Virus record (IMG/VR): IMGVR_UViG_3300022592_000191
Coordinates: 1 to 20,188 of that record
Reading direction: 5' to 3' (one strand)
Origin: a virus
Length of the DNA: 20,188 bases
Part shown: in pieces, positions 2,001 through 20,188 of the stretch
Numbering within the stretch: the first letter of the stretch is position 1
Layout: each line of letters opens with the position of its first letter
Notes under the pieces: model-generated
Database searches by the model: none
What the model saw: only the letters and a program-made list of their open reading frames with translations
What the model was told of the DNA's origin: nothing
Translations under genes and position numbers: made by a program

Positions 2001-3313
2001 ATATTAACACTTTCCTAGAGAGCCTAGCGGCAAATAATTCTCGTAACTTCAAGATCGAGCAACTAAATGCAAATAGCGATAACGAAGTGCTACGTGATGT
2101 AGTCCGCTTGGCTCTCGACCCATTCACTCAGTTTTACATTCGTAAGATTCCTGAGTATGAATTTGTGGGCGAGGGTTCTGAGCATCAAACAAGTTTGGAG
2201 ATGGCACTACAGAATCTGTATTTTCTGTCTAGCCGTGAAGTCACTGGCAATGCAGCGATTGCTCATCTGAGAGCAATTCTTTCTGGGCTAACTCCAGATG
2301 ACGCAAAGGTAATTGAGCGTGTCATTAAGAAAGATCTGAAGTGTGGCGTATCAGTGTCAACTGCCAATGATGTTTGGATGGGGTTGATCAAAGAATATCC
2401 AGTTATGTTGTGTTCTGGTTATGAGCAGAAGCTGGTTGATAAAATTAAATTCCCTGCTTATGCACAACTGAAGATGGATGGTATGCGTTTCAATGCAATC
2501 GTTCGTGATGGTAAATGTGAATTTAGGAGCCGAAATGGAAAAGAAATACTATTACTGGGTAACCTTGAGCAAGAATTTATTTCTCTTGCTGGTGATATTG
2601 ATTGCGTGTTCGATGGTGAACTTCTGGTTATGTTTCCTGGTGATCATCAGTTTGCTGATCGGCAGACTGGCAATGGAATCCTTAACAAAGCCAACAAAGG
2701 AACAATCTCGCAAGTAGAAGCTGCCATGGTGCATGCAACTGTATGGGATGTCATACCTTATGCATATTTCACTGATGGGTATTGCCCAACACCATACGCA
2801 ACTCGGTTCGCATCATTGGAAGTAATGACCAAGAAGCAACCAAGTAAAGATAAAAAAATTTGGCTGGTTACAAGCGACATTGTAGAAACTCTTGAGCAGG
2901 CTACAGAGATTTTCAATGGTTATCTGACTCAGGGTCTTGAGGGAATTATCCTTAAGGATGGCTCTGGCGTATGGGAAGATAAACGTGCAAAACACCAGAT
3001 TAAATTCAAGGGTGAACTTGAGTGCGATCTTAAGATTGTTGCAGTTGTAGAGGGTGAAGGTAAAGCTGCAGGAATGTTAGGTGCAATTATCTGTGAGTCT
3101 GCCGATGGTGTTGTAAAAGTTAATGTCGGTTCTGGTTTTAAAGATTCGCAACGAAAACAATACTGGGCTGAAAATTTAGTTGACAAAATTGTCGCAGTCA
3201 AGTATAATGTTAGAATACAGAATAAACAGGGTGAAGACTCTCTCTTCCTTCCTGTCTTTGTAGAAATTCGTGAAGATAAAGATGTTGCAGATTCTAGTAA
3301 GGATATTAAATGA
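1997..3313 (+). CDS. 30: ATP-dependent DNA ligase, T4 gp30-like
   Basis: Seals nicks in DNA during phage replication and repair by ATP-dependent adenylation of a lysine and then of the 5' phosphate. The 438-residue protein has the helical N-terminal domain followed by the adenylation domain. Motif I is AQLKMDGMR with catalytic Lys159, the same position as in T4 ligase; motif III is VFDGELLV near 204-211; motif IV is EGIILK at 315-320; motif V is IKFK near 335-338. The OB-fold part follows (VNVGSGF) and the protein ends soon after LREDK-like IREDK. It is about 50 residues shorter than T4 gp30 (487), mostly by lacking the loop after motif III and the C-terminal tail. It overlaps both neighbours (ATGA). 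An exact consensus promoter lies within its 3' end. Confidence 0.95.
   Translation: MNINTFLESLAANNSRNFKIEQLNANSDNEVLRDVVRLALDPFTQFYIRKIPEYEFVGEGSEHQTSLEMALQNLYFLSSREVTGNAAIAHLRAILSGLTPDDAKVIERVIKKDLKCGVSVSTANDVWMGLIKEYPVMLCSGYEQKLVDKIKFPAYAQLKMDGMRFNAIVRDGKCEFRSRNGKEILLLGNLEQEFISLAGDIDCVFDGELLVMFPGDHQFADRQTGNGILNKANKGTISQVEAAMVHATVWDVIPYAYFTDGYCPTPYATRFASLEVMTKKQPSKDKKIWLVTSDIVETLEQATEIFNGYLTQGLEGIILKDGSGVWEDKRAKHQIKFKGELECDLKIVAVVEGEGKAAGMLGAIICESADGVVKVNVGSGFKDSQRKQYWAENLVDKIVAVKYNVRIQNKQGEDSLFLPVFVEIREDKDVADSSKDIK
3180..3208 (+). promoter_or_regulatory. Exact consensus sigma-70 promoter inside the ligase gene
   Basis: TTGACA (3180-3185), 17-base spacer, TATAAT (3203-3208); all 12 key bases match. 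It lies in the last tenth of the ligase gene and would start a transcript near 3215, about 95 bases before the gene at 3310 and ahead of the exonuclease and polymerase. Confidence 0.75.
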
Positions 3314-3528
3314 TTCTTGATATGCTGATAAAGCCAAAGCGTTTATTCGATGTAAACGACAAGAAAGATGTTCAGGTATACACAAACTTTTTAAAAACTG
3401 GAGCATGGGGTAGAAATACCTGTCCATTTATTTTAGAGTTTCCATATTTGACTATTCCCGATATGATCAAAGATAAGTTGATTCATAATTTTTTGAAAGT
3501 TAAAAAGTCAGATTGGAAGGACTGGTAA
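3310..3528 (+). CDS. Small conserved unknown protein (72 aa)
   Basis: 72 residues, with the segment CPFILEFPYLTIPDMIKDK in the middle and a basic C-terminus. I recall similar short proteins in T4-like marine phages, but no function. It overlaps the ligase stop by ATGA and the next start by TAATG. It is the first gene after the internal promoter at 3180-3208. Confidence 0.7.
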   Translation: MILDMLIKPKRLFDVNDKKDVQVYTNFLKTGAWGRNTCPFILEFPYLTIPDMIKDKLIHNFLKVKKSDWKDW

Positions 3529-3890
3529 TGAAAGTTGCTATTAATCGTTGCTGGGGTGGGTTCGGTATCTCTGATGCTGCATTCGAGAAGTTGCTAACTC
3601 GTAAGGGTATTGAGTTTGACTCTGTACCAGCAGATAGTCATTTGATCGGCAACTCGTATTACCTCAAGGGACATGTTGGTGACGATGAACATTATCTCTC
3701 TGAGTATGTCATAACTTCGAATCGTGCCGATCCAGATTTGATTGCTGTTCTTGAAGAGATGGGTAAAGAAGCATGGGGTTGGGCAGCTGAGATTGTCATT
3801 GTGAATATTCCTGACGATGTTAAATGGCACATCGATGATTATGATGGAATGGAACATGTAGCTGAAGATCATAGGACATGGTATGAATGA
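3528..3890 (+). CDS. Conserved phage protein (MKVAINRCWGGFG family)
   Basis: 120 residues beginning MKVAINRCWGGFGISDAA and ending in a segment with IPDDVKWHIDDYDGMEH then HRTW. This start-and-end pattern belongs to a small acidic family found in many unrelated phages, with no known function that I can state. The ATG at 3528 is preferred over 3513 because the family starts MKVAINRC and because the TAATG overlap matches other junctions here. The last bases overlap the next gene by 8 nt. Confidence 0.8.
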   Translation: MKVAINRCWGGFGISDAAFEKLLTRKGIEFDSVPADSHLIGNSYYLKGHVGDDEHYLSEYVITSNRADPDLIAVLEEMGKEAWGWAAEIVIVNIPDDVKWHIDDYDGMEHVAEDHRTWYE

Positions 3891-4278
3891 AGAACACGTA
3901 AATTATTTGAAGAAGGTTTACCCAGAACTATACGACAACGATACAAAGTATGGTGGGTTTGCGATTGGGGATGGTTGGTTCAACATCATCAATCAACTAT
4001 CACAAAACATTCAACATCATCTGAAATGGAAGAACAAAGATACTGAGGTTGTTCCTCCAGTTATCATTGAACAGATCAAAGAAAAGTTTGGTTCACTTCG
4101 TTTCTACTATCAGGGTGGTGACGACTACATATCTGGTCTAGTTTCAATGGCTGAGTCAATGGCTGGTGTTACCTGCGAAACCTGTGGTGATGTCGGTGAG
4201 AGTCGTAATGGTGGATGGATTCGTGTTCTGTGTGACCACCATGAAGAATTATATCAATCAAGGAAAAACAATGGATAA
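3883..4278 (+). CDS. Conserved phage protein with C-terminal zinc-binding motif
   Basis: 131 residues. The N-terminal two thirds are alpha/beta with GGFAIGDGWFNIINQL and IEQIKEKFGSLRFYYQGGD. The C-terminal part has CETCGD (near 98-103) and CDHHEE (near 117-122), a CxxC...CxxH spacing that suggests a single small zinc site. It resembles a family common in phages with an unknown role. AGGA at 3873-3876 lies 6 bases before the ATG. Confidence 0.75.
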   Translation: MNEEHVNYLKKVYPELYDNDTKYGGFAIGDGWFNIINQLSQNIQHHLKWKNKDTEVVPPVIIEQIKEKFGSLRFYYQGGDDYISGLVSMAESMAGVTCETCGDVGESRNGGWIRVLCDHHEELYQSRKNNG

Positions 4279-4567
4279 ACAAACTAATGTATGGGTAATG
4301 GTTGACACAGTGCTCACATATCGTATGCGATATTGTGTTCAGGCACCATCGTCACATCCTGAGTATGCCCTTGATGATGTATCAATGGAAACTGCCAAAG
4401 AGTTTTCTCAGTTATACATCGGTGAACAAATTATGTCATACCGAACCGTCAGCGAAGAAGAAGCACTGGCTCAGTGTGACATTGATAACGACTACTGTAA
4501 AAAGTGGGACAATGAACATAAAATTAAAACCTTCTTTACAAAAGAAGGCGAACATAGGGAACTATAA
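4271..4567 (+). CDS. Conserved phage protein (98 aa), unknown function
   Basis: 98 residues, with VWVMVDTVLTYRMRYCVQ, HPEYALDDVSMETAKEFSQ, YRTVSEEEAL and DNDYCKKWDNEHKI. This arrangement recalls a short alpha/beta family of T4-like phages without assigned function. The start at 4271 has AAGGA 7 bases upstream and overlaps the preceding gene by 8 nt; its stop overlaps the exonuclease start as TAATG. Confidence 0.75.
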   Translation: MDKQTNVWVMVDTVLTYRMRYCVQAPSSHPEYALDDVSMETAKEFSQLYIGEQIMSYRTVSEEEALAQCDIDNDYCKKWDNEHKIKTFFTKEGEHREL

Positions 4568-11253: not shown

Positions 11254-12606
11254 ATGGTAAAGGTAATTGTAGCAGATAGAAAACACGATTGTTCCCATCT
11301 GGTTGGGCAATTCTTAGATGAGTCACACTACGACATTCTTATTGAAGAAGACTGTGATGTGTATATGCCAGCAACCTGCGATATCGGAACACAATCAGCA
11401 TGTGAATTAAATCGCGATTGTGCCGCATGCGATAAGGGCACTGATGAGCAACGCATTGCGTTTAAGTTCCGCAAGAACTTCTTCACGAAAGAACAACAAG
11501 ATGCAGCATATGCTGGTCTGCGTGAAGCTGCAACCGAAACTCAAAACCGTGGAGCTGCAGCTGGACCACGTGGTGAGAAGTTGGGTAATCGTGAGTGGGT
11601 TCGTGAATATGAATACGACATCGTTGAGTATTTTATGAATCCAGTTGACAATCTTTTCGGTGAAGATCCGATTGAAGAAATTAAGAAGAAGCATGCTGGT
11701 AAGCGTGAGGCTATCTCCAATCGTAACAATGTTTGGTCAATCGAACGCACAAAAGAAATCAACTTCAACTTTGAAGAGTGGGTTGAAAAGACACGCAAGT
11801 TGCCAAAAGAAGAACAGATCAAAGAAGGAAACTTCGTTGCTGATAAGTTAATCTGCGCAACTACCTATGCCAACTCTGTGTTCTCTGGTATCGCTGGTTG
11901 GTTCGATCGTTATCCTCGTATTCCTTATGGTCGTGCAACTGCATATACCGCAAAGAATCCAGAGAAGTTTGCCCTTGCGTTTCCATTCCTACAAACTTTG
12001 GCAAAAGGTTTCAAGGATTTGATGCCATGGCGATATAACAATCAGATGGAAGCGATTAAGAAAATTGATCCAGCATTCATTGTTCCAGGAACTCCGTTCA
12101 CAACTATTACTGTGAACAAAACATTCCGCACTGCTGCTCACTATGACGCTGGTGATTTTTGGCCAGGACTTTCAAACCTGTTGGTTCTGTCAAACAATGG
12201 TAACTACACTGGTGGATATTTGATTGCACCTGAGTATCGTGTTGCAGTTAATGTGCGTCCTGGCGATCTGTTATTGATTAACAATCACGAAGTTCTGCAT
12301 GGCAATACACCTATCGTTCTTGGTGACGATGAAGCTGAACGAATCTCTTTGGTATGTTATCTTCGTGATGGTATGCTTCAACTTGGTTCAAAAGACTATG
12401 AAGACTGCCGTTATCAGTATGTCGAAGATCGTAAAAACAATAAGGAACATCCACTGCAACGTAAGTTGTGGAATGGTGTGTCTGAAGGTATGTGGGCACA
12501 GGATGAATGGTATGACTATCTGAGAAATAAACTTGGTCAAGAAGTTCTTGAGAAGTATCACCCAGAGTCTATCAAATCAAATTCACTTGATGAGTTCTTC
12601 GGATGA
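11254..12606 (+). CDS. TET/JBP-like 2OG-Fe(II) dioxygenase with clamp-type tail
   Basis: 450 residues. The catalytic barrel lies at about 275-375: FTTITVNKTFRTAAHYDAG with His296 and Asp298, NLLVLSNNGNYTGGYLIAPEY, a second iron ligand in HEVLHGNTP (His349) and AERISLVCYLR with Arg363 for 2-oxoglutarate. This pattern looks like the TET/JBP branch, enzymes that hydroxylate the 5-methyl group of thymine or 5-methylcytosine in DNA; phage members are known and tend to sit next to glycosyltransferases. The N-terminal 75 residues hold six cysteines (13, 34, 42, 50, 56, 59) and may bind metal. The last residues SLDEFFG resemble the polymerase tail. It overlaps the cytidylyltransferase (ATGA) and has AGGAGA before its start. 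The 2OG fold is secure; the TET/JBP placement and DNA substrate are inference. Confidence 0.8.
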   Translation: MVKVIVADRKHDCSHLVGQFLDESHYDILIEEDCDVYMPATCDIGTQSACELNRDCAACDKGTDEQRIAFKFRKNFFTKEQQDAAYAGLREAATETQNRGAAAGPRGEKLGNREWVREYEYDIVEYFMNPVDNLFGEDPIEEIKKKHAGKREAISNRNNVWSIERTKEINFNFEEWVEKTRKLPKEEQIKEGNFVADKLICATTYANSVFSGIAGWFDRYPRIPYGRATAYTAKNPEKFALAFPFLQTLAKGFKDLMPWRYNNQMEAIKKIDPAFIVPGTPFTTITVNKTFRTAAHYDAGDFWPGLSNLLVLSNNGNYTGGYLIAPEYRVAVNVRPGDLLLINNHEVLHGNTPIVLGDDEAERISLVCYLRDGMLQLGSKDYEDCRYQYVEDRKNNKEHPLQRKLWNGVSEGMWAQDEWYDYLRNKLGQEVLEKYHPESIKSNSLDEFFG

Positions 12607-13013
12607 GAAGCGGATTTACCTGCTCCACATTTGACCTGCTGCATGCTGGTCACATACTAATGCTTAAAGAAGCACGGGAACAGTGTGACTTTTTGGTAGT
12701 GGGATTGCAAACTGATCCCACTATCGATCGTCCAGATACAAAGAACAAACCAGTTCAAAGTGTAGTTGAACGCTGGATTCAACTAGACGCTGTTAAATAT
12801 GTTGATCAGATTATTGTATATCAAACTGAGAAAGATCTTGAAGACTTGCTGAAGATTCTTGACATTGATGTAAGAATCCTCGGTGATGAGTATGCAGAAA
12901 AACCTTTCACTGGCAAAGAAATTTGCCTTGCAAGGGGAATTGAGCTATACTTTAATAAACGGGAACATTCTTTCTCCACAACTGAATTGAGACAAAGGGT
13001 TAAACAATTATGA
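12603..13013 (+). CDS. Cytidylyltransferase-like nucleotidyltransferase (TagD/RfaE type)
   Basis: 136 residues, the whole length of a single-domain nucleotidyltransferase such as glycerol-3-phosphate cytidylyltransferase. The signature HxGH is in FDLLHAGH (His14, His17), and FSTTELRQR near the end corresponds to the (I/F)STTxxR motif. It would join CTP or ATP to a phosphorylated polyol, sugar or pyridine compound, releasing pyrophosphate. It lies between the TET/JBP-like dioxygenase and the glycosyltransferase with ATGA overlaps on both sides, so it probably makes an activated donor for the same pathway. Substrate cannot be read from the sequence; a role unrelated to DNA modification remains possible. 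Confidence 0.85.
   Translation: MRSGFTCSTFDLLHAGHILMLKEAREQCDFLVVGLQTDPTIDRPDTKNKPVQSVVERWIQLDAVKYVDQIIVYQTEKDLEDLLKILDIDVRILGDEYAEKPFTGKEICLARGIELYFNKREHSFSTTELRQRVKQL
12923..12951 (+). promoter_or_regulatory. Candidate sigma-70 promoter before the glycosyltransferase
   Basis: TTGCCT (12923-12928), 17-base spacer, TATACT (12946-12951), 9 of 12 consensus bases. It is 59 bases before the glycosyltransferase ATG, inside the cytidylyltransferase gene. Confidence 0.4.
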
Positions 13014-14353
13014 AAATTATGATGGTAATGCATACCTTCAATAACTTCGGTGGTATTATTAACCACTGTGAGCATTTAATGGCTGGTTTAAAAGAATTGG
13101 GTCACGAAGTTACCTTTGCTTATCTCAAGGGTAACAAAACTGTTAAGCCAGTTGAAATCCCACAACAATTGAGTGAAGGATGGGAGATTGGTATTGGTTC
13201 TGGTTATCCAGTGCATCAGGGTGATGGTTGGATGGCTCCATATTATTCTTACAAAGTTAAAGAATCCATTGACCAGTTCGTTAAGGATGCGAATCAGCAT
13301 GACTTAGTAATCTGGCAATCTATCTTTGGTTTCAAGAATAAAGATACTGAGCAATATCTCGATTGGCTTCCTATGATTGAGAAGGTAACTGCCAAGCAGA
13401 TGCCAATCATTCACGACGCAAACCTGAAGAAGTTGTACCCATGGATTAAACTGTTTGAACATAAGTTCTGTGCAGTTGCCTGCGTGCATCCAGCAGCATA
13501 TGAGTCAGCTGACTTTCTTGATGTTCCACGTGCAATGATTTTGAATCCTCAAGACATTGCTGGTATTCCAGAAACTCCACCATTCGCTGGTCGTGAAAAT
13601 AAATTACTGTCGATTCAAACTTTCAAACGATGGAAGCGTGTCGATGATTTAGTTCGTGCTGTTCCATATATGCCAAATGTAAAAACCTTGGTAGGTGGCT
13701 ACGGTATGGAAGCTGCATATATGATGTCCAAGGATAAGTGTAAAGAAGAATATTATGCAACAAAACAATATGACCCAGATGTTTCTCCAGACAGAGAAGG
13801 AAAGCGTATCTGGGAAAACGCTGAGAACAGTGGAAACTTCGAGTATCTCGGATTCATCTCTGGAGCAAAACGTGACGAAATCTTGGCAACAAGTAAGTTC
13901 CTCGTTGATCCATCTTGGAGTAACACTTACGGCGAGCACTTTAACCGTGTGGTTATCGATGCAATGCGTATCGGCACAGTTCCTATTGCCGTAAACTTCG
14001 GTGTGTCAAACAACGAAGAAGGTATGGGTGTGGTTCTGAAAGCTGGTGTCAACTATTGTATGTTGAAAAAGGCATTTACACCGAAACAGTATGGCGAAGC
14101 GATTCAAGAGTACTGCAATATGGATGAAAATACCTACCGTCAGATTCAGCTAAATAATTACGAACTAATTAAACAGTTTGACCGTAAGGTTATTGCTCAG
14201 CACTATATCGATCTGGCAGAGCAGAAACCGACTGGTTATCTGAATGAGTTGAAGACCAAGACTAATCATGACCCTGCCATGCAAAAAGATGCGCAAAAGA
14301 TGTTCGATGAACACTTCGAAGTAAAAGCAACCCTGGACTCACTATTTGGATAG
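13010..14353 (+). CDS. GT-B glycosyltransferase (GT4-like) with clamp-type tail
   Basis: 447 residues. The N-terminal Rossmann half begins MKIMMVMHTFNNFGGIINH, with the glycine-containing acceptor-side loop of GT4 enzymes. The C-terminal half begins near 195 with KLLSIQTFKRWKRVDDLVRA, a typical start of the GT4 donor domain, and has DPSWSNTYGEHFNRVVIDA (about 300-318), the E-x7 acidic region that contacts the nucleotide-sugar. It should move a sugar or polyol to an acceptor. Its place behind a TET/JBP-like oxygenase and cytidylyltransferase suggests modified DNA bases as acceptor. The C-terminus TLDSLFG matches the polymerase-type clamp tail; T4 alpha-glucosyltransferase is reported to contact the gp45 clamp. 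A cell-surface or virion acceptor is the alternative. Confidence 0.85.
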   Translation: MKIMMVMHTFNNFGGIINHCEHLMAGLKELGHEVTFAYLKGNKTVKPVEIPQQLSEGWEIGIGSGYPVHQGDGWMAPYYSYKVKESIDQFVKDANQHDLVIWQSIFGFKNKDTEQYLDWLPMIEKVTAKQMPIIHDANLKKLYPWIKLFEHKFCAVACVHPAAYESADFLDVPRAMILNPQDIAGIPETPPFAGRENKLLSIQTFKRWKRVDDLVRAVPYMPNVKTLVGGYGMEAAYMMSKDKCKEEYYATKQYDPDVSPDREGKRIWENAENSGNFEYLGFISGAKRDEILATSKFLVDPSWSNTYGEHFNRVVIDAMRIGTVPIAVNFGVSNNEEGMGVVLKAGVNYCMLKKAFTPKQYGEAIQEYCNMDENTYRQIQLNNYELIKQFDRKVIAQHYIDLAEQKPTGYLNELKTKTNHDPAMQKDAQKMFDEHFEVKATLDSLFG

Positions 14354-14365
14354 AAAGGACTGAAA

Positions 14366-15055
14366 ATGAAGTATCTACAAAATTTAGATTTCGATTTTAT
14401 AGAAATGCTGAATTTTGAGGAGCGTCCTTTTCGGGCTAAATTCAATCCCTCTAAAATCTGGGATGACTTAGATAGATGTAAAAATAACGCCACTAACTTG
14501 AGGAACTACTTCAAGAAGTGGCGTTTCAGCATTGTATTTCATAAAGAAAACAAACCAACCAAATGTATAATGGTAGGTGGTGGTTACTATACAGATGAGT
14601 GTCGTTCAGAATTAGATATCTGGACTGGCAGTGATACAGACTACAACAAATACCAGTTTACGGATTCGTCATGGAATCGCTTTAAGTTTAGAGTTATTCA
14701 GGTTGCAATGCATGAGATAATCCACTGTCGCCAGTACTATGGAAAGCATGAGGAATACACAAAGGGTAAAGTCTACTACAAGAAAACTGGCATAAAGAAG
14801 ATTGATGAGAACCGTGAATACCATGCTGGAAAAGATGAGATCGAAGCATATGCACACTGCGTCTATCTGGACTTCAAAACCAAGCGACCAACCATTCCAG
14901 TTGCCACCCTTATCCGTTATGCCAAAACATACAAAGTCTCCAAAAACCTAACTGGCATTCAAAAGTTATTCAGAACAGACAAAAACAATGGGGTAATTCC
15001 CCTTCTTCTACGTAAAATACTCGTCTGGGAACGTAAATACAAACATTTTGCTTGA
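14366..15055 (+). CDS. Putative zinc metalloprotease-like protein
   Basis: 229 residues with a zinc-binding helix AMHEIIHCRQYY (HExxH near residues 114-118) and, about 50 residues later, KDEIEAYAH, which offers the third glutamate ligand, as in gluzincin-type proteases. The C-terminal third is basic and helical. I see no signal peptide or membrane segment, so it would act in the cytoplasm or virion. The natural substrate is unknown, and some HExxH phage proteins may not be proteases. It follows the glycosyltransferase by 12 bases with an AAAGGA ribosome site, and ends in the -35 box of the next promoter. Confidence 0.7.
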   Translation: MKYLQNLDFDFIEMLNFEERPFRAKFNPSKIWDDLDRCKNNATNLRNYFKKWRFSIVFHKENKPTKCIMVGGGYYTDECRSELDIWTGSDTDYNKYQFTDSSWNRFKFRVIQVAMHEIIHCRQYYGKHEEYTKGKVYYKKTGIKKIDENREYHAGKDEIEAYAHCVYLDFKTKRPTIPVATLIRYAKTYKVSKNLTGIQKLFRTDKNNGVIPLLLRKILVWERKYKHFA

Positions 15056-15087: not shown

Positions 15088-16161
15088 ATGGGTCAACTGA
15101 TGCAAGTAAAAGATAAACAATTAATTCCGTCTGCGTTTCAAATCGCCGATGGATCACACATGTCATTGACGGACTTAATGACAGCTGTAAAGAATAAACT
15201 AACATCCAAGGGGTTTGGTTTAACCTCTGGTGTTCAGAAGGCATGTCTCCATATACTGAATGAATCCGCAAAAGGTAACTCTTCTTTTGCCCATGACCAA
15301 GGAACATTGACCGACCAAGAGTATAACATTATTCTTAAAGACTTTGGTGAAATTTCTGGTGCAGCTTATATGCTCAAGACAGAATCATCAAAGTATAAGG
15401 CAGTTACGTTTCCAACTGGCAACGAAAAGTTAGTTGACTATGTTATGGTCACTAAGAATGGATTGAAAGAAAGTTATTCTGCCAAGGCAGGACAGGGTGG
15501 TAAACCTTCAATCGTTTCAGTAATGCCAATTTTCGAACAGATGGTTAGAAACAACCAGCTCGATAATAAGTATAAAACTGCCACATGGGTTCTCTATCAT
15601 TTGGGTAAAGAACAGACAAACGCATTGTATCTTGGACCATTGCAGGCAGCTGAGCATTTAAACACTAAAGGTTATCAGGCACTGTTGGCATTGTTGAAGG
15701 ATAAGTCGTTGAAGACTGGATATGTTTCTGGTATTCCAACTGATAAGCATCTAGAAGCTGCAGTTGTTAACTGCGGTAACTATGAGAACTTCATTAAGGT
15801 TACTAAAAAGTATTACGATGCAGCTGGTTATTCAAACAATATAAATGTAGAAGTCACTAAAAGAATTTTAGGCAAGACGTATGATAGAAAGCGTTATGGA
15901 TTATTGCACTATCCAATAACAGCGGAATTAGTTAAGTGGTTGAACACTGACGCAAATCATGCTAAAGATTTATTGACAAAAGCTGCCAACACATTATCAG
16001 TTACACAAATTTACTTGGATAAAAAGGGACAAAATCTCCAGTATACAGTTAAGGGATTCTCTGAAGCAGAATTCTCTTTCGGATCTCCAAGTAGCGCACC
16101 ATATCCAACTAATAATCGAATTGGGTTCACAATGAAAAAGACCCCACAACCAAAAGGATAA
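15088..16161 (+). CDS. Conserved phage protein (357 aa), unknown function
   Basis: 357 residues, soluble. The N-terminal region has LTSKGFGLTSGVQKACLHIL and a helical segment around EYNIILKDFGEISGAAYML. A central stretch, FPTGNEKLVDYVMVTKNG followed by SYSAKAGQGGKPS, has an Asp and, after a turn, SxK spacing that could be the core of a PD-(D/E)xK-type nuclease, but this is weak. The C-terminus becomes Pro/Ser/Lys-rich. I recall similar proteins in marine T4-like phages without a function. The start has no Shine-Dalgarno; an in-frame ATG at 15100 is an alternative. It lacks the capsid-targeting decamer of the next genes. Confidence 0.75.
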   Translation: MGQLMQVKDKQLIPSAFQIADGSHMSLTDLMTAVKNKLTSKGFGLTSGVQKACLHILNESAKGNSSFAHDQGTLTDQEYNIILKDFGEISGAAYMLKTESSKYKAVTFPTGNEKLVDYVMVTKNGLKESYSAKAGQGGKPSIVSVMPIFEQMVRNNQLDNKYKTATWVLYHLGKEQTNALYLGPLQAAEHLNTKGYQALLALLKDKSLKTGYVSGIPTDKHLEAAVVNCGNYENFIKVTKKYYDAAGYSNNINVEVTKRILGKTYDRKRYGLLHYPITAELVKWLNTDANHAKDLLTKAANTLSVTQIYLDKKGQNLQYTVKGFSEAEFSFGSPSSAPYPTNNRIGFTMKKTPQPKG

Positions 16162-16164
16162 ACA

Positions 16165-16602
16165 ATGTTACACTTTAAAGAATATCTAAAAGAGGAAGCT
16201 GAAGGTGCCAAGCTAAAGCACATTACGCACCCAGAAGATCGTCCTCTTCACCATGGTCATGCTGGGTTTGAACATGCATTTAACGCACTTCATCAGGCGC
16301 ATAACCAAATCAAATCAAAACAAAGTTCACACAAGTTAACAATGAAGTATGATGGTTCACCATCTATCGTGTTTGGTCATCATCCAAAGAATGGTAAGTT
16401 CTTCGTTGCAACTAAATCTGCATTTAATAAAAATCCAAAGATCAATCATACGCATGAAGACATTGAAAAACATCATGGTCATGCTCCAGGATTGGCACAC
16501 AAACTACATGCTGCACTTGAGCATCTACCAAAGGTAACTCCGAAGCATGGTGTTTATCAGGGCGATTTGATGCATGCTGGAAAGGAAGATCACCATGAGT
16601 AA
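16165..16602 (+). CDS. N-terminal half of a split KxDG ligase-fold protein, capsid-targeting start
   Basis: 145 residues. Motif I of the nucleotidyltransferase (DNA/RNA ligase, capping enzyme) superfamily is KYDGSPSIVFG with Lys61, followed by a possible motif around FVATKSAFNK and motif III at YQGDLM (131-136). The protein then stops, while related phage proteins, as I recall them, continue into SFTPNTI-type sequence in one chain; that part is encoded by the next ORF. The N-terminus MLHFKEYLKE fits the T4-type capsid-targeting pattern, with L-K-E as cleavage site. It is His-rich, about 24 of 145 residues. If active, Lys61 would take AMP or GMP; whether it is active without the other half is unclear. 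AGGA precedes the ATG. Confidence 0.75.
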   Translation: MLHFKEYLKEEAEGAKLKHITHPEDRPLHHGHAGFEHAFNALHQAHNQIKSKQSSHKLTMKYDGSPSIVFGHHPKNGKFFVATKSAFNKNPKINHTHEDIEKHHGHAPGLAHKLHAALEHLPKVTPKHGVYQGDLMHAGKEDHHE

Positions 16603-17362
16603 AGTTTCATTTACACCAAACACTATCACCTACACAGCTAAGGGTGATGAAGCCAAGAAGATTAAGAAGTCTAAAGTTGGCGTAGTAGTTCACACCAAGT
16701 ATCATGGTAAAGACATTGAACATATGCATGCTGAGCATGATGTTGACCATGAGAACTTCAAACACCATGAAGATGTTCACCACCATGGCGCAGAAAAAGA
16801 ACTGGAACATGTTCACCATACTCCAGAAAAAGAAGCAGAGTTCCATCGTCATATGGCTGCAGCGAAACATATCCATGACACTCATGGTAAGAAAATGTAT
16901 CCAGCTACAGAGAAACACTCTGGCGAAGCTGGCCACTTAGCTTCTTATTCAAATGCAGTTATCAAGAATAATGAGCACCCATCGGCAGAAGGTTTCAAGA
17001 AACATGTCGAGGGACATTACGAAAAAGCAGCTGCCAAGTTAAAGACAGAAGCTGGTAAAGCAAAGAAACGTGCAGAAGGTGCGTCGCACACTGAGCATAT
17101 CGAAAAGAATAAAGAGCACTATGGTCATCTATTGCAGATGCACCATCACCTACAGTCTGCCAAGAATGCATTGGTTAATTCTCTTGACACTCATGAAGGT
17201 CGTTATGAGCATCATATCAATGGTAAGAAAACTAAGCCAGAAGGTTACGTTGTTCACCATGAACATGAAGGTCAATCTCATCCAAGTAAGTTAGTCAATC
17301 GCCATGAGTTCGCAAAAGCAAACTTCGAACGTGGGGCAGCAAGAAAAAAGGAAGCTGAATAA
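16595..17362 (+). CDS. C-terminal half of the split KxDG ligase-fold protein, very His-rich
   Basis: 255 residues starting MSKVSFTPNTITYTA. It continues the preceding protein: KVGVVVHTKYHG corresponds to the segment after motif III, PEGYVV (215-220) fits motif IV and SKLVNR (231-236) fits motif V. The start at 16595 is supported by AAGGAAG (16582-16588) 6 bases upstream; it overlaps the stop of the first half (ATGAGTAA). His is about 39 of 255 residues by my count, with clusters such as HVHH and MHHH, so metal binding is possible. It has no capsid-targeting decamer, so it would need to bind the first half, or be fused by frameshifting, to be packaged. A sequencing frameshift is less likely given the clean ribosome site. 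Confidence 0.75.
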   Translation: MSKVSFTPNTITYTAKGDEAKKIKKSKVGVVVHTKYHGKDIEHMHAEHDVDHENFKHHEDVHHHGAEKELEHVHHTPEKEAEFHRHMAAAKHIHDTHGKKMYPATEKHSGEAGHLASYSNAVIKNNEHPSAEGFKKHVEGHYEKAAAKLKTEAGKAKKRAEGASHTEHIEKNKEHYGHLLQMHHHLQSAKNALVNSLDTHEGRYEHHINGKKTKPEGYVVHHEHEGQSHPSKLVNRHEFAKANFERGAARKKEAE

Positions 17363-17781
17363 TGTTATCATTTTCTGAATACCTAGAAGAATCAAAAGAT
17401 CCTTGTTGGAAAGGATATAAAATGCTCGGTATGAAAAAGAAGGGAAATAAAGAAGTCCCTAATTGCATACCAGAAGATAAAGAACACAAGTGTGGTTGCG
17501 AAAAAGAATGCGAATGTGAAACTGTTTCTGAAGATGCCAAAGGATATAAGAATCCAACTGGTGGTTTGACTCAGAAAGGTCGCGACCATTACAACAGAGA
17601 AACTGGTGGGCATTTAAAGGCACCAGTGACAACTCCACCATCAAAATTAAAAGTAGGAAGTAAAGCTGCCAATCGCAGAAAATCTTTCTGTGCCAGAATG
17701 TCTGGTGTTGAAGGTCCAATGAAAAAACCAAATGGCGAACCTACTCGTAAGGCACTCGCACTAAGAAAGTGGAATTGCTAA
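17362..17781 (+). CDS. Small Cys-containing phage protein (DUF6321-like), capsid-targeting start
   Basis: 139 residues in three parts: the decamer MLSFSEYLEE (targeting-like, L-E-E cleavage), a Cys-rich section (CWKGYKMLGMKKKG, NCIPE, then HKCGCEKECECE, seven Cys in about 35 residues) and a conserved basic C-terminus (GGLTQKGRDHYNRETG, SKAANRRKSFCARMSG, KALALRKWNC). The last part matches a phage domain of unknown function that I remember as DUF6321. The Cys and His content suggests zinc binding and the basic tail nucleic-acid binding, both inferred. Starts in TAATG with the preceding stop and ends in TAATG with the next start. Confidence 0.75.
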   Translation: MLSFSEYLEESKDPCWKGYKMLGMKKKGNKEVPNCIPEDKEHKCGCEKECECETVSEDAKGYKNPTGGLTQKGRDHYNRETGGHLKAPVTTPPSKLKVGSKAANRRKSFCARMSGVEGPMKKPNGEPTRKALALRKWNC

Positions 17782-18395
17782 TGTTACGTTTTCTAGATTT
17801 CCTTAAAGAGTCTGCCTCTGATAAACACCATGTTATCACTGTTGGACGTATGCAGCCACCGACAGCTGGACATGAGAAAGTAGTCGATAAGGTTCATGAG
17901 GTCGCAAAGAAACACAATGCAACTCACCATGTGTATCTCTCTGGTTCCCATGATGCCAAGAAGAACCCACTTTCTCCAGAGTCTAAAGTTAAGCATGCTA
18001 AGAATGCCTTTCCAAAGACGCATGTCTCTGCACTTGCCAAAGGCGAAACTCCACTGCATGCAGCTGCAAAGGCACAAAAAGAAACTGGCGCACACCACCT
18101 GCATGTTGTAGTTGGATCTGATCGAGTTAAGTCTACCCATGATCTTTTACACAAGTACAACAATGTAAAAGAAAAGCATGGTCACTACAATTATAAGTCC
18201 ATCACTGTCCACTCATCTGGCGAGCGTGATGAGAACGATAAGGGAACTGCTGGTGTATCAGGAACAAAGATGCGTGAACATGCTGCATCTGGAAACGAAA
18301 AAGAGTTTCATAAAGGTCTTCCATCTAAGATGAAACCAGAGCATAAATCCGCTTTATACCATGATTTGCGTAAGTCAATGGGGCATACTAAATAA
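17781..18395 (+). CDS. Nucleotidyltransferase (NMNAT/cytidylyltransferase-like), capsid-targeting start
   Basis: 204 residues. After MLRFLDFLKE (targeting-like, L-K-E) comes VITVGRMQPPTAGHEKVV (about 18-35), the GRxxPxxxGH form of the HxGH motif, and later VSGTKMR (159-165), the counterpart of ISSTxxR. These mark the NadM/NadR-type or cytidylyltransferase superfamily; some phage members are NMN adenylyltransferases. It would use ATP or CTP with NMN or another phosphate substrate. The ATG at 17781 is chosen over GTG at 17769 because of the TAATG junction and because it puts the decamer at the N-terminus. His-rich like its neighbours. Its C-terminal segment (KMREHAASGNEKEFHKGLPS) is close to one in the next protein, so the two are paralogues. 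Confidence 0.8.
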   Translation: MLRFLDFLKESASDKHHVITVGRMQPPTAGHEKVVDKVHEVAKKHNATHHVYLSGSHDAKKNPLSPESKVKHAKNAFPKTHVSALAKGETPLHAAAKAQKETGAHHLHVVVGSDRVKSTHDLLHKYNNVKEKHGHYNYKSITVHSSGERDENDKGTAGVSGTKMREHAASGNEKEFHKGLPSKMKPEHKSALYHDLRKSMGHTK

Positions 18396-18425
18396 TAAAG
18401 CGACTAAATAATATACTGATATAAT
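18387..18425 (+). promoter_or_regulatory. Tandem late-promoter-like repeats with an extended -10 box
   Basis: ACTAAATAATA occurs twice, at 18387-18397 and 18403-18413, 16 bp apart; each contains CTAAATAA like a T4 late promoter. The first overlaps the stop codon of the preceding gene. Downstream, TGATATAAT (18417-18425) is an extended -10 without a -35. All would drive the gene at 18441. Confidence 0.55.
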
Positions 18426-18440
18426 TTATAGATGGGTACA

Positions 18441-20188
18441 ATGAAGAACTACAGACAGTTATTGAAAGAACTACCGTCCAGATCGGTCGTGTTTGCATAC
18501 GGCAAATTCAACCCACCGACAACTGGACATGAACTGCTTGTAAAGACAGTTAAAAAATTGGCAGAACAAAGAAATTCTGACCACATCATCTTCGCTTCCC
18601 CATCTAAAGATACTAAAACTTCTCCACTTGTAGTCGAGAAGAAGATTCATTATCTGGAAATTATGTTTCCAAATACTAAGTTCAATGCAGCCGATGAAGA
18701 TACTAAGAATATAATCTCCATTGCCAAAGAACTTAATGAGAAGTATAAGAACATCGTTCTGGTTGCTGGCGAGGATCAGGTTACAGAGTTAACTGCATTA
18801 TTGAACTCTCGCAATGGTAAAGACTTTCGTTTTGAATCCATTGAAGTAATTGCCGCTGGAACTCCAGATGCTGATGATGTGAAGATGCGTAACTTTGCAT
18901 CTAAAGGTTTATACGAACAATTTAAACAGGGATTACCAAGCGTAATTCGTGACATCGATAGTCGTCGTCTGATGAATGATATTCGTCAGGGTCTTGGACT
19001 TGAGATTGTAAAAGAAGAAATTAAATTAGTTAAAGATAATATTCGTGAACAATATTTCCGTGGTGAGATCTTCAAACTTGAAGAAATCGTTGAGTCGGAT
19101 GGTGTTGTTTATAAGATTGTTAAACGTGGTTCGAATCACTTGCTTCTACAAACTGAAGAAGGTAACTTAGTCAGTAAATGGATTCAAGACGTAACACCAT
19201 CAAAGAGAGAATTTATGGTAGAGAAATTTAAAGTTTGGGTAGAAGGCGTAATTCAAAATAGCGGGACTGACCAGATTAGTTTCGTTGGTTCTGTTGCCGA
19301 CAAAGAAGCAGTTTCTTCTACCGATGAGAAGCCAAACAAAAAAGTTAAAAAGTACAAAGACATTTCCTTCGGTCCAGATATGAACGATGGAAAGATTAAT
19401 GTCTCTGAACAACATGAGCCACCAATTGACCATGGTACTGAACAGGCTGGTGTTGGTGCTCAACAAGTAATGGCAATGCATAATCTTCCTGGTAAAGTTG
19501 GACATACATTACATCCAACAGGAAACGATAATGTTCGTCGCCGTAAAATTGCATATACTCTCGGTGAAGATCAGCATGACTTATACGACTTGGCTCAGTC
19601 TCACAAAGAAACTGCAGAGAAATCAAAGTCAAAAGGAAACATGGGCGCATATCATGCTCATATGGTTCTACACCATGAAACACTTGGTGGCTGGCATGAA
19701 GCTAAAGGACGTAGTTCTTCTGCCGATCGTGAATACGAAAAAGCTGAACACCATCACAATCAGTCATTGAAGCATCCATATATGACTGAATCTTTTCACC
19801 ACACTAAAGTAACAGATGGTGAGAATGGCGCAAAGATAGTTAGCCATGGCGATCACATTAAGATTGTTGTTCCAACTGAACATCACAAAGTGATGAAGGG
19901 ATTACAACATGGCGAACACCATTCCTTCAAGAATCACAATGATGAAGAGTGGGGAATTATTAAACATGGTAACAGTTATGTGTTCAAACCACATAGTATG
20001 GATACTGGTGTTTATGGTGGATTTGCATGTCAGGTTCCGTGTGATCACTTTCATGGTGGAAAAGATACTGAAACTCAAGAAGTTTCTGAAGCGCACAAGA
20101 TTGGCGACAAAGTTATTATGACCAGAGGTCCAAAAGATGTTGTTGGAAAAACTGGTCATGTTGGTGAGATTCGTAAGCGTTGGGCTGG
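18441..20188 (+). CDS. Large nucleotidyltransferase-fusion protein, 3'-partial, capsid-targeting start
   Basis: The frame stays open to the right edge, so at least 582 residues are present and the end is missing. The start at 18441 gives MKNYRQLLKE, the fourth targeting-like decamer; an in-frame ATG at 18432 would add MGT. A nucleotidyltransferase domain follows: VVFAYGKFNPPTTGHELL, LVAGEDQ and KMRNFASKGLYEQFKQGLPS, the last two shared with the preceding protein. Then comes a segment (about 180-265) seen after such domains in other phages, as I recall. The rest is long, hydrophilic and His-rich (HHHNQ, EHHSF), and near the edge HKIGDKVIMTRG followed by GKTGHVGEI resembles a KOW motif. Function beyond the nucleotidyltransferase is unknown. 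No clear Shine-Dalgarno. Confidence 0.85.
   Translation, partial: MKNYRQLLKELPSRSVVFAYGKFNPPTTGHELLVKTVKKLAEQRNSDHIIFASPSKDTKTSPLVVEKKIHYLEIMFPNTKFNAADEDTKNIISIAKELNEKYKNIVLVAGEDQVTELTALLNSRNGKDFRFESIEVIAAGTPDADDVKMRNFASKGLYEQFKQGLPSVIRDIDSRRLMNDIRQGLGLEIVKEEIKLVKDNIREQYFRGEIFKLEEIVESDGVVYKIVKRGSNHLLLQTEEGNLVSKWIQDVTPSKREFMVEKFKVWVEGVIQNSGTDQISFVGSVADKEAVSSTDEKPNKKVKKYKDISFGPDMNDGKINVSEQHEPPIDHGTEQAGVGAQQVMAMHNLPGKVGHTLHPTGNDNVRRRKIAYTLGEDQHDLYDLAQSHKETAEKSKSKGNMGAYHAHMVLHHETLGGWHEAKGRSSSADREYEKAEHHHNQSLKHPYMTESFHHTKVTDGENGAKIVSHGDHIKIVVPTEHHKVMKGLQHGEHHSFKNHNDEEWGIIKHGNSYVFKPHSMDTGVYGGFACQVPCDHFHGGKDTETQEVSEAHKIGDKVIMTRGPKDVVGKTGHVGEIRKRWA

Follow-up and report, generated by a model that had tools for sequence, protein, structure and literature searches.

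Four neighbouring genes at the right end of a 20,188-base virus record (IMG/VR record IMGVR_UViG_3300022592_000191; this whole stretch is referred to as the window) encode proteins that start with a common ten-residue sequence, which very probably is a capsid-targeting sequence of the type known from phage T4. The tagged proteins are the first chain (chain A) of a split, ligase-like DUF6267 protein, a cysteine-rich DUF6321 protein and two proteins of the NMNAT/PPAT fold, and they would together form a head load that is ejected with the DNA. The phage is a water-borne relative of T4. The four proteins probably travel in the head and reach the cell together with the DNA, since proteins with the same start occur in purified particles of related phages. 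An earlier reading of the sequence alone, in which these proteins were proposed to be an injected enzyme set, was partly supported.

The shared decamer and its spread

All four decamers are present as they had been described (genes starting at 16165, 17362, 17781 and 18441), and the common residues were recovered as well: the proteins start M-x-x-[FY]-x-x-[FYL]-L-x-E. The genes and their decamers are:

16165..16602, plus strand: DUF6267 chain A, 145 residues, first half of a predicted RNA-ligase-like nucleotidyltransferase (PF19782, 5e-48; phrog_455)
16165-16194, plus strand: decamer MLHFKEYLKE, N-terminus of DUF6267 chain A
16595..17362, plus strand: DUF6267 chain B, second half, without decamer (PF19782 positions 131-373; split junction in 38 other contigs)
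17362..17781, plus strand: Cys-rich basic protein with a C-terminal DUF6321 (PF19846, 1.5e-27)
17362-17391, plus strand: decamer MLSFSEYLEE, N-terminus of the Cys-rich DUF6321 protein, at a TAATG junction
17781..18395, plus strand: NMNAT/PPAT-like (cytidylyltransferase-like) protein (phrog_3041, 4.6e-55; motifs PPTAGH and SGTKMR)
17781-17810, plus strand: decamer MLRFLDFLKE, N-terminus of the first cytidylyltransferase-like protein, at a TAATG junction
18441..20188, plus strand: second cytidylyltransferase-like protein, truncated at the window edge (PF01467, 7e-6; phrog_3041; structure model and fold comparison)
18441-18470, plus strand: decamer MKNYRQLLKE, N-terminus of the second cytidylyltransferase-like protein

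The starts had been thought to be those favoured by TAATG junctions, which is correct for 17362 and 17781 and not for the other two: the ATG at 16165 lies 3 bases after the preceding stop, and 18441 has an in-frame ATG 9 bases upstream, at 18432. In a relative (L005) the equivalent ATG, 10 bases before the decamer start, is not in frame with the gene, so that 18441 rather than 18432 is probably the true start. At these starts, which are backed by relatives, the N-terminal decamers end in (I/L)xE, as do the capsid-targeting sequences of T4. After residue 10 the only match among the four bodies is that between the two cytidylyltransferase-like proteins (30% identity).

A strict pattern, M..[FY]..[FYLI][LI].E, was scanned at the near-start ATGs of open reading frames (ORFs) of the window plus 12 further contigs or genomes, and was matched at 22 of the 5,104 near-start ATGs against 2 of the 8,004 internal ATGs (13 genomes/contigs; Fisher p=1e-7). 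As a permutation control the four residue classes were set at all 3,024 possible position placements. Outside the window (12 contigs/genomes) the true placement gave 18 start-codon matches, against a placement mean of 0.82 (standard deviation 1.09), and the sole other placement that reached 18 has the identical four positions with the two aromatic classes exchanged. In the window the true placement gave 4 matches against a mean of 0.026, and no other placement gave 4. The observation is therefore confirmed and a chance origin of the decamers is excluded. Two of the starts do have the TAATG junction in common and resemble each other in their early codons, as would be expected if the decamer reflected a translation-start signal at the nucleotide level rather than a protein tag; such a signal, like chance, is already contradicted by the permutation control, by the codons at positions 4, 7 and 8, which vary synonymously and conservatively, and by the recurrence of the residue pattern in unrelated proteins described in the following, and we give it practically no weight.

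The relatives that were found via DUF6267 carry the tag on DUF6267, on cytidylyltransferases, on Cys-rich proteins and on unrelated proteins. It is present on 62 of 80 diverse DUF6267 loci, and for the cytidylyltransferase loci the exact tag was found on 34 of 74, with about 21 more (counted by eye) having a tag that is one residue shorter, e.g. MKTFKDIRE↓A (the arrow marks the candidate cut position). Stenotrophomonas phage DLP6 is a cultured relative whose DUF6267 is tagged. A degenerate DNA pattern for MK(T/S)FK(Q/E)(F/Y)xxE recovered at least 120 environmental stretches, with at least 124 tagged ORFs (≥ 40 residues) in at least 59 groups that have no mutual similarity after residue 12; the control with reversed codon order gave 13 matches, from about 5 sequences. 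Among the matches listed, 118 of the 124 tagged ORFs are preceded in frame by a stop that lies no more than 30 codons away. At position 8, where F, L, I, M and V were allowed, 101 of 124 have L or I; at position 11, which was left wholly free, 75 of 124 have S or A, but only 23 of the 59 group representatives do. The tagged families among these same matches included: cytidylyltransferase, DUF6267, DUF6321, adenylate kinase, ADP-ribosyltransferase, S-adenosylmethionine (SAM) lyase, HD hydrolase, GNAT acetyltransferase, HAD phosphatase and a lytic-transglycosylase domain. A preference for replication proteins, which the sequence-only reading had named as an outcome that would speak against it, was not observed among the families shown by this tag-directed search. 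In two contigs (L173, 2357-3913; L233, 6502-9422) four tagged genes whose bodies are unrelated follow directly on one another, suggesting cargo islands, and a tagged ADP-ribosyltransferase (ART-PolyVal, 1e-23), of a class comparable to T4 Alt, is found in a third (L250, 6037-6816).

Correspondence to T4 and to the virions of related phages

In T4 the protease gp21 cuts N-terminal propeptides off gp24, Alt and the internal proteins (PMC5694885), and the proteins that bear such a tag are injected effectors (PMC3012670). The capsid-targeting sequence of T4 (IPI, IPII, IPIII, Alt; Mullaney and Black 1996, cited in PMC5694885) shares with the window decamers its length of 10, an aromatic or hydrophobic residue at positions 4 and 7, I or L at 8, E at 10 and, often, a small residue next after E10. 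The window differs in that its cargo is RNA-ligase-like, NMNAT/PPAT-like and DUF6321, and in that the phages belong to other clades; cleavage, known for the T4 sequence, is predicted for that of the window. The start MKTYQEFIAE, which had been attributed to IPI-IPIII, is found in IPII and IPIII, whereas IPI starts MKTFKEFTSTTTPVSTITE; the first seven residues of IPI (MKTFKEF) are identical to those of many environmental tags. When T4 was used as positive control, the strict pattern matched exactly ipII and ipIII, and a relaxed pattern (M..[FYLMIW]..[FYLMIW][LIVMF].E) added one opposite-strand ORF, which is probably not a gene, and two proteins, gp24 and Alt.

The virion data of related phages connect the decamer to the particle. 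The cytidylyltransferase T4-GC190 is present in purified S-SM1 virions (Sullivan et al.; PMC3037559), and its start, MKKFSAFLNE↓A, is the only strict match found in S-SM1, of which all but 1,999 bases were scanned. Both strict matches of S-CREM2, the SAM hydrolase gp6 (MKDFDSFLEE) and the cytidylyltransferase gp154 (MKNFSSFLTE↓A), are listed in the virion mass spectrometry table (PMC10665884); the relaxed pattern adds gp13, gp14 and gp136, all in that table, and overall five of the six relaxed matches at annotated starts are virion proteins (Fisher p=0.003; 219 ORFs, 52 in virions). Another virion protein of S-CREM2, gp12, carries RFASFMAE↓A just downstream of the annotated start. The virion NMNAT of S-SCSM1 (ORF91) starts MKSFLQFLKE↓A (PMC9602691) and the virion-detected cytidylyltransferase of S-SZBM1 (S-SZBM1_140) starts MRFRQFIIE↓A (PMC9146016); the adjacent DUF6267 of the latter phage, which starts MAKNTHLEHLED and thus lacks a decamer, is missing from the table of its virion proteome (PMC9146016). 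A decamer-bearing cytidylyltransferase orthologue is thus reported in the virions of four cyanophages (S-SM1, S-SCSM1, S-CREM2 and S-SZBM1), and the Syn9 and P-SSM2 relatives carry the tag too. The proposed head packaging is in this way well supported via relatives, and well beyond the evidence of the sequence-only reading, all strict-pattern proteins in T4, S-SM1 and S-CREM2 being virion proteins. The NMNAT-like enzymes of the cyanophage virions (T4-GC190, ORF91, S-CREM2 ORF154 and S-SZBM1_140) have a related domain and the decamer, as in the window, but the window has two copies, one of which is without SGTKMR. The available portions of the cyanophage virion papers give no targeting signal, and the open-licence literature yielded no paper that links capsid targeting to cyanophages.

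In the mechanism that we propose, the N-terminal decamer would dock the proteins in the prohead core and a gp21-type prohead protease would remove it after (I/L)xE. The tagged proteins would then remain in the head until they are ejected along with the DNA, and the untagged chain B is predicted to enter the head bound to chain A, or else would remain outside. Nucleotide or NAD (nicotinamide adenine dinucleotide) chemistry and RNA sealing or adenylylation could start at once after ejection. Packaging in the head by a T4-type capsid-targeting sequence is the step of which we are most confident; by analogy to T4, residues 1-10 are likely removed, and ejection with the DNA is a reasonable, though less secure, expectation. 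The folds and motifs only tentatively suggest a role early in infection, in the metabolism of NAD or nucleotides and in the sealing of RNA.

The decamer could instead be a scaffold- or core-binding peptide that serves assembly only, with the proteins being destroyed or inert rather than delivered as active enzymes, since T4 core proteins are cleaved to peptides by gp21 (PMC5694885) and both scaffold and protease were likewise found in the virions of S-CREM2. We consider this unlikely, because the tag sits on folded enzymes whose catalytic motifs are conserved and the T4 proteins with the same tag act as effectors after injection (PMC3012670).

Several observations weigh against delivery from the head. 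A near look-alike without E10, MKQYQDLIKD, starts T4 thymidylate synthase, an enzyme that is not a known head cargo. S-CREM2 gp175 matches the relaxed pattern and is not detected in the virion mass spectrometry table, and the strict pattern had no match at the near-start ATGs of Pelagibacter phage HTVC008M. The support from virions rests on relatives, the window itself being a fragment without gp21, gp22 and gp23. The gp21-like protease, for which a search had been suggested, was found together with gp23 in a relative that has a tagged DUF6267 (G001, 105 kb), but the presence of the two is not discriminating because decoy contigs have both too (10 of 15 decamer contigs of at least 40 kb against 5 of 5 decoys, three of which are apparently the same virus). 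Finally, the evidence for cleavage of such tags is confined to T4, and the authors of the S-CREM2 and S-SCSM1 studies state that abundant non-virion proteins may persist in CsCl preparations (PMC10665884, PMC9602691). The latter two points, and the position of the module next to the replication genes uvsX and dnaB, would fit a role outside the head, either as a localisation helix in early infection or in docking on a host or replication complex, with the virion detections being contamination. Such a role appears very unlikely in view of the position-for-position match to the T4 internal proteins, gp24 and Alt, and the link between tag and virion detection in several independent phages. In addition, the capsid propeptides end in the same site: those of the major capsid proteins of tag-bearing phages end, for example, in FLTE↓A, FLSE↓A, ILTE↓T and LLTE↓A (with the cut placed by analogy to T4).

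The split DUF6267 protein and the other proposed cargo

Motifs and model suggest that DUF6267 is a ligase-type covalent nucleotidyltransferase. Chain A contains KYDGSP (motif I) and QGD, and chain B contains EGY/EGF and KLVNR. The motifs KxDG, QGD, EGF and KxV are kept in 16 relatives, in which K62, D64, G65, E369, G370 and K385 are invariant, so that motifs I, IV and V of the ligase type are represented. In the structure model (predicted local distance difference test 81, predicted template modelling score 0.80) the tag forms a short helix (residues 4-9), followed by a low-confidence linker (8-19) and the folded body. The VIA-align rows of this model were mostly RNA and DNA ligases, the best being RNA ligases (Z about 8, which is modest alone; root-mean-square deviation 3.8, 184 residues); Hsp70, which is unrelated, also gave rows, at Z 6-7. 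No match of the model was significant in Foldseek alone, and a profile search of solved structures with DUF6267 and the cytidylyltransferase gave nothing convincing and no significant match to solved ligases. Like the RNA ligases (Naegleria Rnl, T4 Rnl1/Rnl2, Trl1), DUF6267 has the KxDG, EGF and KxV motifs and, in the model, a putative ligase-like fold; unlike these it has a large helical insertion, is encoded as two chains in the window as in 38 further contigs, and has a predicted activity.

The decamer had been assigned to a split ligase-like protein. The split was recovered as two ORFs (16165-16602 and 16595-17362), of which only the first carries the decamer; the chain B start, ATG 16595 (a longer ORF start lies at 16574), overlaps the chain A stop as ATGAGTAA. 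A sequencing error was suspected, as DUF6267 is one ORF in ten relatives and a first junction pattern was without match. This was ruled out by a junction search that recovered the overlap, ATGA(G/C)TAA, in 38 contigs besides the window (L440-L477), including that of L327, which has about 72% DNA identity to the window and is split at the identical place. In all 38 contigs the junction is shared, chain A (about 146-149 residues) is tagged and chain B starts M(S/T)K(K)VSFTPNTITYT, which shows that the split is genuine; the overlapping genes probably encode a translationally coupled two-chain ligase-like enzyme. In one clade of single-ORF relatives the split point corresponds to a loop that bears FLTEA, FIVEA, YIVEA or similar, a sequence, (F/Y)(I/V/L)xE↓A, that has the form of a candidate prohead-protease site. 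A second protease site as a general feature of DUF6267 was considered and rejected, the loop sequence being limited to that clade.

The cytidylyltransferase-like protein at 17781 has PPTAGH and SGTKMR, the latter of the form of the C-terminal SxT(K/E)xR motif of NMN adenylyltransferases, whereas in the alignment that at 18441 has kept PPTTGH and lost SGTKMR. Both the (T/H)xGH motif and the nucleotidylyltransferase fold of an NMN adenylyltransferase were found, the PPAT, NadD and NadM rows being tied for the cytidylyltransferase-like model (Z 13-15). In some relatives (L006, 7253-9049; L008, 5338-7476) the tagged domain is followed by a P-loop (GGPGSGKD), which is reminiscent of NadR (NMNAT and kinase). 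After residue 10 the Cys-rich DUF6321 protein contains 8 Cys and has a net charge of +14.

Genomic setting and implications

The order uvsX, dnaB-type helicase and DUF6267/cytidylyltransferase module is the same in HTVC008M and Methylophilales phage Melnitz, both of which are classified as Kyanoviridae. The gene that precedes the module is:

15088..16161, plus strand: upstream gene of the same run, without decamer (distant match, 25% identity, E 5e-16)

Its match is the phage C48C1 gene directly upstream of the C48C1 DUF6267. At the other end a contig (G003/L056) overlaps the window, and there the second cytidylyltransferase-like gene is completed at base 1876; the same contig encodes, at 2334-4490, a 718-residue protein that starts MKNYKQIMED, a near-variant of the decamer. 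Further upstream in the window a Tet/JBP-type 2-oxoglutarate-Fe oxygenase (11254-12606), a small nucleotidyltransferase (12603-13013) and a glycosyltransferase (13010-14353) overlap in this order, possibly a cassette for DNA base hypermodification or sugar attachment, and a 229-residue ORF (14366-15055) with an HEIIH motif, possibly zinc metalloprotease-like, had no Pfam family above the cut-off. The late-promoter-like box CTAAATA occurs five times in the window (3.1 expected), three times directly upstream of 15088 and 18432; 21 of 100 shuffles reached five and the box was not used as evidence.

The principle of capsid targeting is already known from T4. A search of open-licence papers for the decamer, DUF6267 or DUF6321 returned only T4-GC190 in PMC3037559, and as far as the open literature goes the following are new: the association of the tag with enzymes in the virions of marine T4-like phages, the wide range of tagged families, and a conserved two-gene ligase-like enzyme with one tagged chain. 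The cyanophage virion papers report NMNAT-like enzymes and kinases in particles and leave unsettled whether these are cargo or contamination; the decamer offers a mechanism and a way to predict cargo from sequence, which can be checked against existing proteomes. It suggests that the signal of coliphage T4 is a widespread, portable delivery tag on many enzyme families, some of which (SAM lyase, ADP-ribosyltransferase) have plausible counter-defence roles, and for the split RNA-ligase-like enzyme it implies that the second half must be loaded in another way. More speculatively, the T4-like phages of lakes and seas may share a general delivery system, in which a head-loading tag turns unrelated enzymes into injected effectors. 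DUF6267 would then be a two-chain ligase, with the tag confined to chain A and chain B carried in by it; and, because the loop of the sister clade has a site predicted to be open to the prohead protease, cleavage at this place may activate the enzyme in the head.

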